Below are positions 7,121 through 64,000 of a stretch of DNA of 64,000 nucleotides, piece after piece. Origin of the DNA: Paenimyroides aestuarii (GTDB taxonomy: Bacteria > Bacteroidota > Bacteroidia > Flavobacteriales > Flavobacteriaceae); assembly GCF_024628805.1 (NCBI RefSeq), contig NZ_CP102382.1:620001-684000 (forward strand), in the 5' to 3' direction. The notes under the pieces were generated by a model, which was not told the DNA's origin, made no database searches, and was given only the letters and a program-made list of their open reading frames with translations. How positions within the stretch are numbered: the first letter of the stretch is position 1; every line of letters begins with the position of its first letter. The translations under genes were made by a program, and so were the position numbers.

Positions 7121-8169
7121 TGGGTGTAAAATATCGTAAATCATATAAATTTGCAGCAAAATCAGCAGCAGTAATCAGTCTATTCAGTATGCTGCTTTTG
7201 TTTCTGTTGCACTATTTTTTTCATCAAATAGACATCTTTTTCACAGTAACTTTTTCGTTACTGTTTTTTGGTTTTTGCTTTTTTGTGTTGCAATACCGCG
7301 TGGAACGCTTTATTTACCGCCGCATTCAAAAAATTTATAAAGAAGTAAGCATTTTAGATGAATCGGTGTTGCGAAACCAGCCCATAACCACCGATATGCA
7401 AACCTTAATGTATGAAGTAAACAAGTTTGCAAGCGAAAAAAAAGTAGAAATAGAATCTTTAAAAGTGCAAGAAGAATACCGCCGAGAGTTTATTGGCAAT
7501 GTGGCGCATGAACTTAAAACACCGCTTTTTACCGTGCAAGGTTATATTTCTACATTAATAGAAGGCGACGTAAAAGATAAAGAAATCCGCAAAAAATACT
7601 TAGAACGTGCCGATAAAGGTATTGAACGGTTAATTGACATTGTGAACGATTTGGATATGATTACCAAGTTAGAAACCAATGAATTAAAACTGAATATACA
7701 ATCTTTTGATATCATTGAACTTTTTCAAAGTGTTTTTGATCTTTTGGAAATGAAAGCCGATAAAAAAGACATTACTTTGATGTTTGATAAAGACCATTAC
7801 CGCACTATTTTGGTGAAAGGCGATCGCGAAAAAATCAATCAAGTACTTCTTAATTTAATTGATAATTCCATAAAATACGGAAAAGAAAACGGCACCACCG
7901 AAGTATCTATAGAAAATCTTACCGAAAAAAAATTACTGGTTCGCATTACAGACAATGGCTTCGGAATAGAAAAAAAACACATCGGTCGTTTGTTTGAACG
8001 CTTCTACCGAACCGATAGCAGCCGCTCCCGCGATATTGGTGGCTCTGGTTTAGGGCTTTCAATCGTAAAACACATTATAGAAGCCCATAACGAACATATT
8101 TACGTGGAAAGCAAAGTGGGCGTTGGCTCTGAATTTTCGTTTACCATTGAAAAAGCTGTTAAAAAATAA
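7120..8169 (+). CDS. PhoR-like sensor histidine kinase
   Basis: 349 aa. Two transmembrane helices near the N-terminus (about 13-32 and 36-60) are separated by only a few residues, so there is almost no periplasmic sensor domain. Then come a HisKA dimerization domain (FIGNVAHELKTPLFTVQGYI, phospho-His about 130) and a HATPase_c domain with N box (NLIDNSIKYG), G1 (DNGFGI), F (LFERFYR) and G2 (GSGLGLSIVKHI) motifs. The absence of an extracytoplasmic sensor suggests it detects a membrane partner, a membrane state or a cytoplasmic signal, as PhoR does. Coupled to the response regulator immediately upstream. Confidence 0.9.
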   Translation: MGVKYRKSYKFAAKSAAVISLFSMLLLFLLHYFFHQIDIFFTVTFSLLFFGFCFFVLQYRVERFIYRRIQKIYKEVSILDESVLRNQPITTDMQTLMYEVNKFASEKKVEIESLKVQEEYRREFIGNVAHELKTPLFTVQGYISTLIEGDVKDKEIRKKYLERADKGIERLIDIVNDLDMITKLETNELKLNIQSFDIIELFQSVFDLLEMKADKKDITLMFDKDHYRTILVKGDREKINQVLLNLIDNSIKYGKENGTTEVSIENLTEKKLLVRITDNGFGIEKKHIGRLFERFYRTDSSRSRDIGGSGLGLSIVKHIIEAHNEHIYVESKVGVGSEFSFTIEKAVKK

Positions 8170-51884: not shown

Positions 51885-53677
51885 AAAGAGGCTGTCCAAA
51901 AAGGGCAGTCTTTTTTTTATGCGGCTAATTTTTGATAGTGAAAATTTTGATGATTATTTTTAGTTGAAGAAAATTCTTGATGCTTAAAAATGAAAATTTC
52001 AATTTCAAAAATCATTTTTGAACCTCGTTTTGCGGTTTTTACAACAATTTTCTTAGAAGTCGCTCCTTTAGCCACCATTTTTCTAAAATTATGTCCAAGA
52101 GCCATCAGTAGAAATTCTAATTCTACTTTTTCTAATCCTTTGAATGTAAATCTGTTAAATTTATTATTGCTTTTGAGTTGACCAAAGACAGCTTCTACTT
52201 CTATCGGGCGTTTGCTTCGGTGTTTTAAACCTTCTTCGCTAGTTAATAATGTTTTAGCCTTGTGTTTTAATTCATTTAATCGGTGGTTGACTTCTATTTT
52301 TCGGTTGCCTTTTGCATTGAAACATTCCCCTCGAAGCGGACAATTGTTGCAGTTTTTAGCTTGATAATAAGACACTTGCGATTCGTATCCGTTGCTCGAA
52401 ATTCGTTTGCCTTTGCCTATATTTTCCATTCGTTGACCCATCGGACAAACGTAAAAATCTTGTTCTTGGTTATAGAATAAATTCTGAACCAAAAACGGAT
52501 TGTTTTCCATCTTCTTTTTCTGTTCTGCATGAAAATAATTATACTTCACATACGCTGTAACGCTCTTATTTTCAAGCATTTCGTAATTCTCCTCACTTCC
52601 GTATCCTGCATCGGCAACCACTTCTTGCTTTGTTTTTTGTAAGCATTTTCAAAACCTTCCAAATGAGATTCTAAAGTGGTGGTGTCACCAGGTTTTTGAT
52701 GGATAGAGATGTGTGTAATAAACTGGTTTTCAGTTGAAATCTGCGTATTATAAGCCGGTTTAAGCTGTCCGTTTTTCATGTGATCTTCCTTCATCCGCAT
52801 AAAAGTAGCGTCGGGGTCGGTTTTGCTGTAAGAATTCCTATCGCCTAAAGTTTCTAGGTCTTTTTCGTATTTTTCTAATTTTGGAAGATGCTCATCCTGA
52901 AGTTTTTGTAGCTCTTTTGCCTGTTTTTTGGTAGGTCTTTTTAGTTTTTTGTTCAATTCAGATAACTTCTCTTTTAGTTCTTCGGAATTGATTTTTTTGG
53001 GCAGTTCTTCCTTGTTAAGTTCTTGATTATCTGATTGAATACTGTTTTCAATATCTGAAAGAATCGTATTGATTTTAACTTCTAATTTTTCTTTGTACTT
53101 TTCCACAGAACCCCGCCAAACGAAGGTGTATTATTGGATTTTGCCTCTATTTTTGTGCCGTCAATATACTGAATATCAAGGCTGATGTAGCCCAATTCTA
53201 CCAGCATTTTCACCCACTTCGGCAAACAAATCTTTGATTTTCTCCTTCAAAATTTTCCCTCTAAATTCGTTGATGGTTCTAAAATTTGGCGTAGAATTTC
53301 CCGAAATGTACATAAAATGAATGTTTTCGGTAAGGGCTTTGGCGATTTTTCTACACGAATAAATGTTGGACAAATAGCTGTAAAACAACACTTTAATCAT
53401 CATTCTCGGATGATATGCAGAGCAACCTCCGCCTAAGTAAAGATTTGTAATATCGCTGATATCCAATTGATTAACCACCGAATCCACCAACCGAACGGGG
53501 TGGTCTTCTGGAATCAAATCAAAAATATTGATAGGGAAAAGTTCTGGAGAGTTGCCTGTTTGATTTTTAAATGTTACCTTAGCCATAGTTGGGTTTTTTG
53601 TTCAACTCTAAAATACGAATTTTTTAGAGAAAACACAACAAAAAAAGGGCTGCCCAAACTTTTTGGACAGCCTCTTT
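51885..53677 (-). mobile_element. IS1182-family insertion sequence, 1793 bp, decayed
   Basis: Perfect 19-bp terminal inverted repeats at 51885-51903 (AAAGAGGCTGTCCAAAAAG) and 53659-53677. A transposase on the minus strand is broken into three frames. The element lies between the GNAT gene and the signal-peptide part of the split gene. No target duplication could be recognised. Confidence 0.92.
51917..53586 (-). pseudogene. IS1182-family transposase broken by three frameshifts
   Basis: N-terminal piece 53586-53176 (DUF772-type: LFPINIFDLIPEDHPVRLVD, AYHPRMMIKVLFYSYLSNIY), middle piece to 52546 (coiled coil, then [20 protein letters not shown]), C-terminal piece 52621-51917 ([43 protein letters not shown]). 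The breaks are one extra G near 53206 and single lost A residues near 53130 and 52620, all in homopolymers. Correcting these restores one protein of about 555 aa. Confidence 0.9.
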
Positions 53678-59505: not shown

Positions 59506-59829
59506 TCAGAAAAACAGCACTTCGCTGATTACAATTTCGGTAATGCTGCGCTTGATGCCCTCTTTATCCTCGTAGGTGCGATAAGTAAGTTTACCCTCCA
59601 CGGCAATTTCTTTACCTTTTTCAACATATTTTTGAATCAGTTCAGCGGTTTTGCCCCATGCAACGATGTTGTGCCATTGGGTGGTTTCCACTTTTTCTTT
59701 TTTATCGTTGTAATAATAATCGCTCGTTGCAAGCGATAAGGTTACTTTTGTACCATTGTCAAAAGTTTTGGTTTCTGGTGTGTTGCCTACTCTCCCGATT
59801 AAGCGAACGTTGTTGCGTAATGTACTCAT
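59506..59829 (-). CDS. ssb: Short single-stranded-DNA-binding protein without acidic tail
   Basis: 107 aa: a complete OB fold (MSTLRNNVRLIGRVGNTPET, TTQWHNIVAWGKTAELIQKY, KEIAVEGKLTYRTYEDKEG) ending ISEVLFF. The acidic C-terminal tip that recruits partner proteins is missing, so this is probably a second ssb paralogue rather than the main replication SSB. It lies next to the cassette array and is transcribed away from it. Confidence 0.88.
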   Translation of the reverse strand: MSTLRNNVRLIGRVGNTPETKTFDNGTKVTLSLATSDYYYNDKKEKVETTQWHNIVAWGKTAELIQKYVEKGKEIAVEGKLTYRTYEDKEGIKRSITEIVISEVLFF

Positions 59830-59982: not shown

Positions 59983-60012
59983 TTTGTTAATTAAGGAACT
60001 TTCGTATATTTG
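59983..60012 (+). promoter_or_regulatory. Canonical promoter firing into the cassette array
   Basis: -33 TTTG (59983-59986, within TTTTTG) and -7 TATATTTG (60005-60012) with an 18-nt spacer, a complete Bacteroidota promoter. Expected transcription start is about 60017-60019, at the very boundary of the first cassette. All four cassette genes point away from it, the arrangement of an integron Pc promoter. The region 59830-59982 upstream shows nothing except two similar words, TGTAGTCGATTGTAAATG and TGTTGTCGATTATATG. Confidence 0.8.
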
Positions 60013-60027
60013 GGTGTTGGCAGCTAT

Positions 60028-60708
60028 ATGAAAAAACAGAACGCAATGGAATTTAATAAAGAAAAGTACAAAGTTTATACTTGGAAAAATTGGATGATGC
60101 TACATTGGATTTTGAATCCATGTTTAGCAATAAATGAATTGATTTTAGGACAAAGAGTTCCGAAAGTCAGTTTGGAAGATAAAACAATTGACAAGCCGAG
60201 GATTGAAAGAACACTTGTTCCTTGTCCTCATTGCGAGACACTTCACGATGGAAGAACTTGGTCGAAAGAAAACGGAACCGCATTTAAAAATTGGTTTGGA
60301 CTATATTGTAAAAACTGTGGGAATACCATACCTTGTCTGACTAATGGACTGAGTTTGATAATTCTCGCAATTACTTTTCCGATTTGGGGTTGGTTTAGAA
60401 AAAGTCTAAGAGAAAAATGGTTAGAAAAACAACCAAAACGATATGAAAATATTGACCTCGAACATATTCCCAATCCTTTTGACAAAAAGAGGTGGATTAA
60501 AACAGGATTAAGTTGGGGAGCATTTATGTTTTTGATTATGTCAATCGGATTTCCATACTTTGACGGACAAGAAATAACTTTGAAAACTTTATTCTTAGGA
60601 CTTGTAATTTGGACAATTGGCGGACTTGGATTTGGTTACACGATGAAATTATTTATGAACAAGACAATTAAGAAAAAAGAAGAAAATACAGCTGCCAACA
60701 ATGTATAA
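60028..60708 (+). CDS. Cassette 1: zinc-ribbon membrane protein of unknown function
   Basis: 226 aa from the ATG at 60028, 3 nt after the cassette start word (an ATG at 60046 is an alternative; a GTG at 60010 lies in the promoter). A soluble N-terminal part with two Cys pairs (VPCPHCETLHDGRTW and LYCKNCGNTIPC), which looks like a zinc ribbon, then hydrophobic segments at about 104-122, 157-174 and 187-208 and a Lys-rich tail. No known family recognised. The stop lies 10 nt after the start of the attC-like site end word. Confidence 0.75.
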   Translation: MKKQNAMEFNKEKYKVYTWKNWMMLHWILNPCLAINELILGQRVPKVSLEDKTIDKPRIERTLVPCPHCETLHDGRTWSKENGTAFKNWFGLYCKNCGNTIPCLTNGLSLIILAITFPIWGWFRKSLREKWLEKQPKRYENIDLEHIPNPFDKKRWIKTGLSWGAFMFLIMSIGFPYFDGQEITLKTLFLGLVIWTIGGLGFGYTMKLFMNKTIKKKEENTAANNV

Positions 60709-60827
60709 GCGTAATGCGGGCTAAAGTGCTAAATTTAAACGAATTGAATATTAACAAACATAGTGGTAAACCGAAAGTGAAGTGCTTTTAAATCCCGCAC
60801 TACGCTTATACGAAACCGTTAGCGGTT
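60690..60827 (+). repeat. attC-like site A (cassette 1 / cassette 2 junction)
   Basis: End word AGCTGCCAAC (60690-60699), an 18-nt arm 60703-60720 (GTATAAGCGTAATGCGGG) pairing at 17 of 18 positions with 60794-60811, then GAAACC and the start word GTTAGCGGTT (60818-60827). The end word does not match the adjacent start word but does match the start of its own cassette. Confidence 0.85.
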
Positions 60828-60834
60828 ATATAAA

Positions 60835-61521
60835 ATGAAACAGACAATTTTAATAATATTGATATTCATAGTTCTAATTTCTTGTCAAAATAAAAGTCAA
60901 GAAGGCAAGATATTTGATTCTATAAATTATTCTGATACGACAATTGTTGAACATCAAACTCCTGACGGCATAATTGAGTTTGAGCCTTACGACTACGACA
61001 CAATTTTGAGCGGTGGATACAATTTTAAATATAAAGTATATACGGACAAAACGGGTGAAAAACTTCAAAGCTTGACTTTGAGAAAAGGAGATGATGAAAT
61101 TAAAGTGCTGAATGAGACAAGTTTTCCTATGCTATTTAAAAACTTAGGTTATATCGGTGCGGACTTTGACAGCTCTTTTGTATTTGTTCAATCTTTTGGT
61201 TCAGGAAACCCGCATGAAATTCAGCTAATTGACAAAAAAACAGGAAAGGAATTACGTAAAGGAACTTGGGTGGATGTTGACGAGAAAGAACAAGTCATGC
61301 TCTACATAGAAAATGAACATGAACAGAATGAAAAATTGCTCATTTATGACATTAAGAATAGAAATGAAATCCTTTCAACAGGATTTGAGAAATCGAAATG
61401 TGTTGAACATGTAATTGGTGGACTGAGAAATTGTGTGGAGATTGACACAGTGACGACTGACGAAATAGTATTGAAAATTGACACGGACGAAGAAAAAATA
61501 ATAAAGAAATACAACCGCTAA
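60835..61521 (+). CDS. Cassette 2: lipoprotein of unknown function
   Basis: 228 aa. Lipobox IVLISCQNKS about residue 17, then a soluble domain with acidic stretches (EFEPYDYDTILSGGYNFKYK, FDSSFVFVQSFGSGNPHEIQ). No family recognised. The ATG lies 7 nt after the cassette start word; the TAA stop lies inside the end word AACCGCTAAC, so gene and cassette end coincide. The upstream untranslated region is almost absent, so it probably relies on read-through from the array promoter. Confidence 0.75.
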   Translation: MKQTILIILIFIVLISCQNKSQEGKIFDSINYSDTTIVEHQTPDGIIEFEPYDYDTILSGGYNFKYKVYTDKTGEKLQSLTLRKGDDEIKVLNETSFPMLFKNLGYIGADFDSSFVFVQSFGSGNPHEIQLIDKKTGKELRKGTWVDVDEKEQVMLYIENEHEQNEKLLIYDIKNRNEILSTGFEKSKCVEHVIGGLRNCVEIDTVTTDEIVLKIDTDEEKIIKKYNR

Positions 61522-61651
61522 CACGGGTTTGGCAAAAGTGGCGGGTTCAGTGCTCCGCAGACACATTTGTGGTTAATCAAAGTTTGGTTCTCCGCATCAA
61601 CATTTGTGGTGAAAATCGCCACCTTCGCCAAGCCCGAAACCGTTGTGCGAT
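61513..61651 (+). repeat. attC-like site B (cassette 2 / cassette 3 junction)
   Basis: End word AACCGCTAAC (61513-61522), arm 61524-61543 (CGGGTTTGGCAAAAGTGGCG) facing 61617-61636 with 17 of 20 Watson-Crick pairs plus one wobble, then AAACC and start word GTTGTGCGAT (61642-61651). The loop holds a near-perfect direct repeat (TCCGCAGACACATTTGTGGT and TCCGCATCAACATTTGTGGT). Confidence 0.85.
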
Positions 61652-61682
61652 ATGCTAAACCAACAACTTCCCCAAAAGAAAA

Positions 61683-62351
61683 ATGGCAAATAGAACTTAC
61701 TTATTTTATCAGAATAAAGAAAACGAATGGCGTGAATTTGAGTATGCTACAATTATTCCTTCTTTATGGCAGGAATTGTATAATATTGAACTTATCGAAG
61801 CTCAAAAAAATAAAATTATAGAAGCATTTACAAAGAATGAATACAATGGGGAAGATGAAGAACGAAAAGCAAACTTAAAAGTTACAAAAGAGAACGCAAT
61901 TAAAAACTTACAATCGAAAATAAACTTAAATGAAAGTAGTGATAAAAAGCAATTGCGGTTAGAATTTATCAAATTTATACAATCTGAAGTGCTGAACAAT
62001 TCAACTATTGAATTATCTATTGAGGAAATAAGTTGGTTTTGCAATCAACAAGAAGATATTTTCATAGAGCTTGAAAAATTTCATACCGACACACAAACTC
62101 AAAAAGAATTTCATACAGAAAAAGTTACATTTCAAACCATAGGCTTCAATAATGACTTTGAGCCATTTTCAAGCGTTTACAAAAAAATAAATCTTGAACA
62201 AAAAGCCATTAATAAAAAGAATGACGAAAAGCACCAAATAGTAATAGAACAAGCCCAGCGAAAAGAAAGAAAGTCTAAACTTTTTGATTTAATTACCATG
62301 TCGTTAATCGCATCAGTCTGCACTTTTTTCGGTTTTTTGGGATTTTTATAA
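61683..62351 (+). CDS. Cassette 3: membrane-anchored coiled-coil protein, probably frameshifted at its end
   Basis: 222 aa, very Lys/Glu/Asn-rich with predicted helices (about 40-85 and 180-205) and one C-terminal hydrophobic segment (LITMSLIASVCTFFGFLGFL). No family recognised. The reading frame stops at TTTTTATAAAAAA, but another frame continues without a break to 62437 (FIKNELKGGLVMFFFALICW, then VYLKHIRK), which would supply a second transmembrane helix. A one-base homopolymer loss near 62342 is the simplest explanation; the intact protein would be about 250 aa. Confidence 0.65.
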   Translation: MANRTYLFYQNKENEWREFEYATIIPSLWQELYNIELIEAQKNKIIEAFTKNEYNGEDEERKANLKVTKENAIKNLQSKINLNESSDKKQLRLEFIKFIQSEVLNNSTIELSIEEISWFCNQQEDIFIELEKFHTDTQTQKEFHTEKVTFQTIGFNNDFEPFSSVYKKINLEQKAINKKNDEKHQIVIEQAQRKERKSKLFDLITMSLIASVCTFFGFLGFL

Positions 62352-62377
62352 AAAATGAACTTAAAGGAGGATTAGTA

Positions 62378-62437
62378 ATGTTCTTTTTTGCATTAATATG
62401 TTGGCTTTATGTATATCTTAAACACATACGAAAATGA
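62378..62437 (+). other. Frameshifted C-terminal end of the cassette 3 protein, or a 19-aa membrane peptide
   Basis: An ATG at 62378 gives MFFFALICWLYVYLKHIRK, preceded 8 nt upstream by AAAGGAGG, a strong Shine-Dalgarno sequence that is unusual for this phylum. The same frame is open upstream to about 62343 and joins the previous gene if one base is added, so it is more likely the missing second helix of that protein. Confidence 0.45.
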
Positions 62438-62453
62438 CAGAAAGAAAAGCACA

Positions 62454-62591
62454 ATCGCACAACAAGGTATTGCCAAAAGCGGGGCTAAAGTGCACATTTA
62501 GAAATTTTTGCATATATTTGGCTTGAGGTATTTCTATTAGGCTTGGGAGCAAAAATCCCCGCCTTCGGCAATACCCGAACCGTTAGCTGAC
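62454..62591 (+). repeat. attC-like site C (cassette 3 / cassette 4 junction)
   Basis: End word ATCGCACAAC (62454-62463), arm 62466-62484 (GGTATTGCCAAAAGCGGGG) pairing at 17 of 19 positions with 62557-62575, then GAACC and start word GTTAGCTGAC (62582-62591). The two unpaired positions are the same A.C bulge positions as in site B. Confidence 0.85.
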
Positions 62592-62625
62592 ATATTTTCC
62601 GAAAAGAACGACCAAACAAGTTTTT

Positions 62626-63795
62626 ATGAATTTAAAGGAACTAAAAGAACAAATTTCAACAACAATTGAGAATTTAAAAGACCACGGAAAATTTCCAAAA
62701 GAAAATAATCTTTATGATTATAAAATGGAACTAAATTTTTATGGTTTAACAGAATGTATCGAAATTTTTATGAGGAATTTCGCAAAAGACATTTTATCTT
62801 TCTCAAACTCAAATGGTGGAATACTTTTACTCGGAATAAAAGAAGATAAAAAGACTGGAACTTTGGAAGACATTGGATTAGATGTGAAAAATATTGACCT
62901 TCTAAATCAAATAGATTTGAGTTTAGTTTGTCAGCAATTTAACAAAGTTGCTAAAGTCGGTGTAGATTTAGATTTGCAATCATTTCAAATAGGAACAAGA
63001 AATTTCTTTTATCTTCTAATTGAAAAACAAAATCAAATAATAATTCCAATTAATGATTTTAAAGAGTATAATTTAAAAAAAGGAGAAATAATTTACAGGG
63101 TTTCTGGGAAAAACGAAGTTGCTAACTCAACCACTCAAGATTTTAACAAATTTATACAAATCAAAGCAAACGAAAAGAACAAAGAGTTTATGGAAATATG
63201 GTCAAAACTTTTACCAGAAATGTTTGACATAAATCCAAGAGAAGTTTTAATTCTTAATCCGAAAAACAATACTGTTTACGGATATAACTCAAAAGAAAAC
63301 TTGCTTTCAAGTAGCGAAATTGACATTGACCAAACTGAAAACGGTATATTTAATATAATTCTTAATGCGATTTCTGCGGGAGATATTGGGAAGATTTCAA
63401 ACGATGAAGGTAAACCAATTTATAAAATCGTAGGAGAATTAAAGAGCAAAACTCCAAGAGATTTTATCTATTTTTCATCTTTATTTGACAAAATAAAAGC
63501 TCAATCAAATTATAATTTATCTTCCAATCAATTAAAATGTGTGTTTAAACATTTAAATTGGATTACAGACGAGAAACTTCCAATTGAAAATCCCGACGAA
63601 ACAAAAATAAACAATGAATTTAATCAGTTTATTTGGGTTGAAACACTTGATAAAACGCATAAAATTGTATTTTCTGAAAATGCTATTAACCCAATTGTCG
63701 AAGCAATAAATGATAACAAAAATCACAATTCCATTTTTGGAAAATCATTACAAAACAAAACAGTGAAATCAAAAACAAAAACAAAGACCAAATAA
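62626..63795 (+). CDS. Cassette 4: AlbA_2/Schlafen-like nucleic-acid-binding protein
   Basis: 389 aa. The N-terminal part (about 40-160) carries the AlbA_2 pattern: FAKDILSFSNSNGGILLLGI, then a GIxxD-type strand and IPINDF, as in Schlafen-like AlbA_2 proteins. The rest (about 170-389) is not recognised; it ends in a Lys/Thr-rich tail (KTVKSKTKTKTK). AlbA_2 proteins occur in transcription regulators and in several anti-phage loci, so a defence role is possible but not shown. The stop is 3 nt before the end word GTCAGCTAAC. Confidence 0.75.
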   Translation: MNLKELKEQISTTIENLKDHGKFPKENNLYDYKMELNFYGLTECIEIFMRNFAKDILSFSNSNGGILLLGIKEDKKTGTLEDIGLDVKNIDLLNQIDLSLVCQQFNKVAKVGVDLDLQSFQIGTRNFFYLLIEKQNQIIIPINDFKEYNLKKGEIIYRVSGKNEVANSTTQDFNKFIQIKANEKNKEFMEIWSKLLPEMFDINPREVLILNPKNNTVYGYNSKENLLSSSEIDIDQTENGIFNIILNAISAGDIGKISNDEGKPIYKIVGELKSKTPRDFIYFSSLFDKIKAQSNYNLSSNQLKCVFKHLNWITDEKLPIENPDETKINNEFNQFIWVETLDKTHKIVFSENAINPIVEAINDNKNHNSIFGKSLQNKTVKSKTKTKTK

Positions 63796-63798
63796 TAC

Positions 63799-63927
63799 GT
63801 CAGCTAACAAGGGTTTTGCGTCAGGCGGGCTGAAATGCAAAATTCAACGGCAGTTTTTCAATTAAACTTTAGTAATAATATCGGCTTTCGTGCTTCGATT
63901 GCCCCATCATCGCAAAGATTCTGTGTT
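63799..63927 (+). repeat. attC-like site D, right side degenerate (end of array)
   Basis: End word GTCAGCTAAC (63799-63808) and a normal left arm (GGGTTTTGCGTCAGGCGGGC, 63811-63830, followed by TGAAATGC as in the other sites). The right arm is only partly complementary (GCCC 63901-63904 and CGCAAA 63911-63916) before a GTT at 63925, so AAC-to-GTT spacing (116 nt) is kept but pairing is lost. No start word with the usual ATAT follows. Confidence 0.7.
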
Positions 63928-64000
63928 AAAAACCTAATGTTTTTTTATAATTTTGTAAAAATTAAAGCGACTACAAGTTAGCTTCTATAGGGTGGAAATC
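63928..64000. other. Right end of window, AT-rich, no gene seen
   Basis: No reading frame of useful length; TAATTTTG (about 63947-63954) fits the -7 consensus, so a gene may begin beyond the window. Confidence 0.4.

Follow-up and report, generated by a model that had tools for sequence, protein, structure and literature searches.

What kind of mobile system gives each gene in a row its own pair of complementary ends? The question is raised by four consecutive plus-strand genes near the end of a 64,000-nt stretch of Paenimyroides aestuarii DNA (assembly GCF_024628805.1, contig NZ_CP102382.1, positions 620,001 to 684,000; hereafter the window). A sequence-only reading had seen there an integron-like array of single-gene cassettes, being either an orphan array of the CALIN kind (cluster of attC sites lacking integron-integrases) or a distinct cassette system of Bacteroidota. 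Our analysis indicates that the array very probably belongs to a separate integron lineage, whose integrase has no I2 insertion and whose recombination sites have an architecture of their own; cassette circles, the single-stranded substrate, the role of the recombinase, the promoter and the exact cut are the parts of this reading that we infer. It is regarded as separate because it appears to work like an integron and yet departs from one in two defining respects, the I2 insertion and the attC boxes.

The features of the array are listed here. R1 is a covariance model built from 16 sites of the genome that were chosen by stem and complementarity, and positions in the whole genome carry the prefix G000.

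60016..60699, + strand: body of cassette 1, ends GTTGGCAGCT and AGCTGCCAAC; open reading frame stop at 60708, no family match
60697..60820, + strand: hairpin site A, the attC-like site of cassette 1, from AAC to GTT; R1 108 bits, R1-building site
60818..61522, + strand: body of cassette 2, ends GTTAGCGGTT and AACCGCTAAC; open reading frame 60835-61521
61520..61644, + strand: hairpin site B; R1 92 bits, R1-building site
61642..62463, + strand: body of cassette 3, ends GTTGTGCGAT and ATCGCACAAC; open reading frame 61683-62351
62461..62584, + strand: hairpin site C; R1 100.6 bits, R1-building site
62582..63808, + strand: body of cassette 4, ends GTTAGCTGAC and GTCAGCTAAC; open reading frame 62626-63795
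63806..63917, + strand: hairpin site D, left arm and loop, the right arm severed by an insertion element; R1 44.7 bits, a junction
63918..64000, - strand: left end of an IS110-type element reaching to G000:685247; minus-strand transposase frames

Each body is bracketed by a 10-nt word and its exact reverse complement, namely GTTGGCAGCT (60016 and 60699), GTTAGCGGTT (60818 and 61522), GTTGTGCGAT (61642 and 62463) and GTTAGCTGAC (62582 and 63808), and all eight positions agree with the sequence-only reading. Pairing was said to continue past one mismatch in three of the units, and it does so in units 1, 2 and 4, with 3 more pairs each, but in unit 3 only by way of a 1-nt bulge. The AAC-to-GTT spacings of hairpins A, B and C were re-measured as 118, 119 and 118 nt. 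Hairpin D had been taken for a complete site of 116 nt; this measure is invalid because the GTT used for it lies inside the IS110-type element (a family name that we presume from the look of its protein), which breaks D at 63918. The true right arm of D and a fifth unit, GTTACCGGC...GCCGGTAAC (G000:685257-685957), lie beyond the window behind this element, and the array thus extends past the window's end. Under a strict rule for 14-nt ends, which tolerates one mismatch in the 10-nt word and asks for an A/C mismatch at position 11 and two or more of three pairs at positions 12-14, the whole window gave 5 matches, 3 being array units with exact words and 2 having a mismatch, against a mean of 0.8 in five mononucleotide shuffles and 2 in the reversed window. 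As for cassette content, the open reading frame of cassette 4 has a Schlafen AlbA_2 domain (Pfam SLFN_AlbA_2, 9.3e-09), Pfam matched 3 of 10 cassette proteins, and PADLOC run on 10 cassette proteins returned no match.

A scan with the gapped motif AACANNGNNT...AACCGTT was tried and rejected, as its 15 matches were no better than the 18 of a reversed control, and the covariance model was therefore used. In the R1 stem 90.4% of the cells are paired and 15 of the 17 pairs show changes on both sides; covariation reached 0.722, against 0.183 when shuffled and at most 0.114 when slid. The fit of the 16 founding sites to R1 is uninformative by construction, which does not hold for further sites. When the best 150 of 3738 first-look candidates from the genome were scored, at least 46 matches were obtained at E ≤ 1, of which 39 were below 1e-4; some of the weak ones may be false. 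Apart from one single site, 45 matches fall into five clusters:

680-696 kb: 8 matches
1228-1238 kb: 7 matches
1734-1740 kb: 5 matches
2071-2078 kb: 4 matches
2174-2198 kb, the largest cluster, 24 kb: 21 matches

Such a model had been proposed along with the sequence-only reading, and it found matches in the genome itself and in the family and phylum samples. Once completed by the joined end words, a site would consist of a 10-bp segment and one of 3 bp separated by a conserved A/C mismatch, followed by an asymmetric unpaired patch and the covarying 17-pair stem. Fold predictions for the bottom strand of three window sites favour the circle form over the linear one by 7.3, 7.9 and 10.4 kcal/mol, the circle form making a long hairpin with a one-sided bulge of 3-4 nt.

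The complementarity of unit ends was examined in three sets, in each of which 3 matches are given because R1 itself holds AAC and GTT; the controls share them. Set 1 comprised the genome's own arrays and loci of 29 other genomes (99 of 107 R1 rows used; 11 of the 99 sites without a clear AAC or GTT), and in 49 of 54 units the own ends shared a complementary run of 8 nt or more, compared with 2 of 86 for words flanking the same hairpin and 3.4% for shuffled pairings. All 49 fitting units start with GTTR and vary at positions 5-7; position 11 is A against C in 42 of them, and positions 12, 13 and 14 pair in 44, 43 and 40, so the pairing is 10+3. Set 2 was drawn from eight fetched regions, one of which (L114, from the genome itself) overlaps with set 1; of the set's 86 rows 80 were used, and 6 of these 80 sites had no clear ends. 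At least 8 of 10 positions were complementary in 57 of 62 units, as against 5 of 74 for same-hairpin words and 11.9% for shuffled pairings. In set 3, which combined three family loci, three named plasmids and those loci in other families of the phylum sample that held two or more sites, own ends were complementary in 21 of 23 units, 3 pairs not being scorable. The claim that complementarity belongs to the ends of one cassette, with words differing between units, thus holds across the three sets and many genomes, and a length of about 10 bp is right for the word itself but is extended by the A/C mismatch and 3 bp. Together with the circle fold, these sets indicate that a cassette circle would rebuild a folded site from its own two ends, as in integrons. 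The attC sites of integrons have the box consensus RYYYAAC...GTTRRRY. The boxes here do not fit it, as the sequence-only reading had noted.

A tyrosine recombinase gene encoding 355 aa lies about 145 bp from the start of the largest array and is divergent from it (G000:2199491-2200555). The absence of an integrase stated in the earlier account is correct for the window but not for the genome, so that the window's array is CALIN-like only locally. The best NCBIfam score of the protein was to recomb_XerA_Arch (211.5 bits, cut-off 220), followed by the integron integrase TIGR02249 (200.4 bits in two stretches, cut-off 265), XerD (181.5 bits, cut-off 329.6) and XerC (176.2 bits, cut-off 335.15), and it therefore lies below the Xer equivalog cut-offs. 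The I2 insertion is absent: the alignment lacks about 43 residues found in three IntI1-type proteins, and a phmmer alignment to IntI4 breaks at residue 263 to 282 against 185 to 247. The sequence-only reading had suggested looking for a recombinase with the IntI-specific insert near more such sites; a recombinase does adjoin arrays, but it has no such insert. A C-terminal SP-D-L end is common to the recombinase and IntI, and the residues that we take to be catalytic are invariant in the recombinase alignments. Array recombinases have an extra N-terminal part of about 80-105 residues, for which four proteins gave no usable Pfam match at E ≤ 10, and which is a candidate for the replacement of I2. 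Relatives at E ≤ 1e-60 were found in 46 of 120 family genomes. Full-length relatives occur in 8 genomes including its own, with 61-66% identity in the others, the remaining relatives having 35-47%; that of L088 contains two stops in frame. A scan of the genome contigs with the recombinase returned two loci, both irrelevant.

In a tree of 45 rows (IQ-TREE), one branch (100/97) sets off the array-type recombinases and another (100/99) the IntI proteins, and the two together stand apart from XerA and the host Xer proteins (98/93). That array recombinases may be sisters of IntI is a lead and not a result, because long branches meet there and the sampling was drawn from relatives of the query protein.

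Ordinary integrons or CALINs that have lost their canonical IntI, or have it at another place, would likewise show AAC/GTT ends, unit-specific end pairing, a hairpin, a leader, co-directional cassettes and sites invaded by IS110-type elements and group II introns. We consider this explanation very unlikely, given a GTTR end box with 10+3 bp pairing in place of GTTRRRY/RYYYAAC and an adjacent recombinase without the I2 insert. A search for TIGR02249 integron integrases at E ≤ 1e-40 found none in 199 family genomes, a result of little weight that alone proves little, as it had no positive control.

Among the matches listed for the family sample of 120 genomes, 16 of 30 recombinase loci have an R1 site (E ≤ 0.1) no more than 1.5 kb away, as against 0 of 30 XerD loci; an integrase gene adjoining the array, as in integrons, is therefore found here, away from the window's own array. 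Seven of eight recombinase stretches fetched from other genomes (L115, L117-L122), which were selected because a site had already been seen near the gene, contain 3-17 co-directional R1 matches each (E ≤ 0.05). Close recombinase relatives are divergent from their own array in L005, L115, L086 and L090, and the gene is co-oriented with the cassettes in L117-L122, L098, L102, L103, L105 and L109 among the loci printed. R1 sites occur in 260 of 299 family genomes (E ≤ 0.01), many with at least 11 matches, and in 144 of 296 genomes of the phylum sample (E ≤ 1e-4), the phylum being Bacteroidota on the basis of named recombinase relatives and named plasmids. In another phylum, 2 of 149 genomes had one match each, of at most 46 bits, and two further outside genomes, one of them the centre of the other-phylum sample, gave 1 weak match (E 0.64). 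The contig of one other-phylum genome (L173) has a second weak match, which would fit a transfer or a stray contig.

It was also considered that host XerC/XerD, or another recombinase acting in trans, mobilises the sites, and that the array-adjacent enzyme cuts, for example, only its own leader. Sites are indeed commoner (260/299) than close recombinase relatives (46/120), and there are known elements that exploit Xer and integrate in a folded single-stranded form (PMC7790495). We judge this explanation unlikely, since sites lie near the array recombinase at 16 of 30 loci and near XerD at none, and the limit of 1e-60 misses more divergent recombinase relatives.

Upstream of the first cassette two further features were identified:

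59506..59829, - strand: ssb paralogue (single-strand DNA-binding protein), upstream of the leader; Pfam SSB 3.7e-30
59983..60015, + strand: leader, a putative attI-like end of the platform; three paralogous leaders diverge at the next GTT

The block of ssb and leader recurs before two other arrays of the genome (blastn 96.7% over 704 nt and 94.4% over 587 nt), with the other ssb blocks near G000 1227.7 kb and 1741.6 kb, so that three arrays in all are preceded by one. Three different cassettes start from the same GTT in the three copies of the block, and the exact string TATATTTGsGTGTT is found at G000:680005, 1741228 and 2199343. The TTTG-N18-TATATTTG of the leader fits what we take to be the Bacteroidota promoter consensus. 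The protein of the ssb paralogue may assist or limit the folding of single-stranded sites. In most of the co-oriented recombinase loci printed, a palindrome precedes the first GTT (compared by eye, GTT being located with at most 2 mismatches allowed); in L090 the first GTT was not located by this comparison. Across L117-L122 such palindromes, e.g. ATAAACACA-TGTGTTTAT in L119, precede by a few bases the GTT that comes first after most co-oriented recombinases, and by eye their arms change together between genomes, making them candidates for attI or for an operator.

Evidence for movement comes from within the genome and from a published experiment. One cassette, identical at 687 of 688 positions, sits between different neighbours in two arrays, the identity extending from a common ACCGTT to 23 nt into the next hairpin; this cassette and the three sets of own-end complementarity leave the sequence-only reading unrefuted by the conditions that it had set, and support the distinct cassette system that it had offered. 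In other genera, BLAST matches to the window array often cover little beyond a hairpin site (in G263, 96% over query 1502-1629). Natural transformation of Riemerella anatipestifer brought aph(3')-IVb into a locus of relE, a helix-turn-helix (HTH) gene and cdf, where it was inserted with no homology at its flanks and was consistently accompanied by 27 bp upstream and 140 bp downstream of the gene; the 140-bp part was identical in all positive isolates analysed, and in strain RCAD0416 the gene is plasmid-borne (PMC13148043). In the parts of that paper covered, an attC-like fold is noted in the 3' untranslated region of the gene, the mechanism is described as yet to be elucidated fully, and neither "recombinase" nor "integrase" has a match in the main text, no recombinase being named.

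On pRCAD0416RA-1, where the APH(3') coding sequence has 789 bp, the boundary rule predicts a cassette from the GTT at L176:7030 to that at 7986, or 956 bp, exactly the published 27+789+140 = 956 bp; a different strain had served as donor in the experiment. With a cut at G/TT the rule leaves 28 and 139 bp on the two sides of the gene, and with a cut at GT/T 27 and 140 bp; the shared GTT makes the exact cut ambiguous. The plasmid segment (L176, NZ_CP073240.1 9500-30000) holds 8 co-directional R1 sites, and its multidrug-resistance row is built of cassettes; lnu(I), relE/HTH, an OXA gene, tet(X), estT, a phosphotransferase and aph lie around the sites, and 6 of 7 units have complementary ends at 9-10 of 10 positions. 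The lnu(H) gene on Empedobacter brevis pSE1-3-20kb is a cassette as well, and four sites are found on a Chryseobacterium plasmid that also encodes a related recombinase and an IS110 transposase and has a group II intron gene. On an Acinetobacter plasmid, tet(X3) has next to it a short tyrosine recombinase (L177:4052-4717, NZ_CP041297.1) that shares 55% identity with residues 143-376 of an array recombinase, a hint that tet(X3) departed from a Bacteroidota platform and took part of it along; no R1 site was found at E ≤ 0.01 in the 8.7 kb read.

If the arrays were frozen relics rearranged only by homologous recombination between hairpins, a chimeric hairpin such as that of the shared cassette would be accounted for. 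The homology-free insertion observed in Riemerella (PMC13148043, as far as covered) speaks against this, as do cassette ends that are still complementary, since relics would lose their pairing; of the alternatives it is the one to which we give least credence.

Insertion elements accompany the sites. All three IS110-type copies in the fetched stretches lie at the same right-arm point of hairpin sites, and five of six group II introns seen lie directly behind a hairpin site; the sixth (L114:2727) follows a 5S rRNA gene instead. These insertions were rejected as proof of an attC nature because of this sixth copy and because the regions had been chosen for their arrays. Elsewhere in the window, transposase-like frames in pieces (51917-53586, - strand) presumably represent a decayed insertion element. 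The intron copy at the 5S rRNA gene would also suit units that are small transposons with terminal inverted repeats, with the hairpin as a neighbouring terminator or repeat, and inverted words do bound each unit. Such an origin is highly improbable: the words differ between units while the hairpin stem is conserved and covarying, Pfam revealed no recognisable transposase encoded by the four window units, and the hairpin belongs to the published mobile unit (PMC13148043, in the parts covered).

Several observations weigh against a separate integron lineage. No site lies within 1.5 kb of 14 of the 30 recombinase loci, some of which end at a contig edge, and the eighth fetched stretch (L116, a contig start) has no R1 match. 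A close recombinase occurs in just 46 of 120 genomes at E ≤ 1e-60, many site-bearing genomes having none, and no tyrosine recombinase is among the listed genes of the Riemerella plasmid, whose gene table is incomplete, so that the enzyme would have to act from elsewhere. Misfit units amount to 5/54, 5/62 and 2/23 in sets 1, 2 and 3, and two of the five in set 1 start at a false GTT within IS110-type copies. The shared cassette keeps its left hairpin arm and differs in loop and right arm, which simple transfer does not predict; because of this difference its hairpin was presumably recombined or replaced later. Finally, the promoter of the leader is predicted from a presumed consensus.

A separate integron lineage is nevertheless the reading that we prefer, and it would operate as follows. 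A cassette would be one gene with its hairpin site, and the window one platform. The recombinase would excise the cassette as a circle, whereby the joined ends pair their own 10-14 nt words into one long imperfect hairpin; strand exchange at G/TT with the attI-like leader or with another hairpin would then stack cassettes behind the likely promoter. The catalyst is most likely the product of G000:2199491-2200555, together with its relatives beside arrays in other genomes.

A wider claim seems probable to us, held less firmly than the preceding one: Bacteroidota may possess an ancient integron lineage of their own, with IntI-sister recombinases that capture folded single-stranded sites without I2, unseen since finders seek I2-type IntI and proteobacterial attC boxes. 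It would amount to a gene-exchange network across the phylum, from which several Bacteroidota resistance cassettes (lnu(I), lnu(H), tet(X), aph(3')-IVb) would stem. In the portions of the sources covered, recombination of a single- with a double-stranded site is described as unique to I2-bearing integrases and I2 as needed for cassette capture (PMC7790495), and the Bacteroidetes record of IntegronFinder 2.0 has grown from only In0 elements to one complete Salinibacter integron. Because this record is sparse, a large gene-capture network may be absent from current maps. An I2-less recombinase beside long cassette arrays makes the claim of I2 necessity directly testable, and the system offers a comparison for how integrons arose. 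As the plasmid cases indicate, it already carries resistance genes, and it would supply a mechanism for a published homology-free insertion that had none in the parts of the report covered.

No description of the system was found in the open-licence literature, preprints excluded, and as far as the sources were covered the nearest is the attC-like 3' untranslated region of aph(3')-IVb (PMC13148043). It is a cassette of the same kind, our boundary rule giving the published 956-bp unit; that report differs in concerning a single gene, with no site array or wider system in the parts covered. An integron-like subgroup of simple tyrosine recombinases has been described in which the insertion is essential for integron function, and the passages covered link no insert-less member to cassette arrays (PMC8138268). 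With XerA, XerC and XerD the array recombinases have the core fold in common by family match, recomb_XerA_Arch scoring best but below its cut-off; they differ in that the tree groups them with IntI (98/93), subject to the caution about long branches. The likeness to integrons is closest, and it extends to co-directional single-gene cassettes, a 3' hairpin site, a GTT/AAC junction, ends that pair within one cassette and not with its neighbour, a leader that likely contains a promoter, a tyrosine recombinase gene beside arrays, and plasmid forms with resistance genes. The Bacteroidota system differs from integrons in a recombinase without I2 and with an extra N-terminal part of about 80-105 residues, in GTTR boxes with 10 bp, an A/C mismatch and 3 bp followed by a long 17-pair stem, and in having two gene orders, either divergent or with recombinase and cassettes in one direction.

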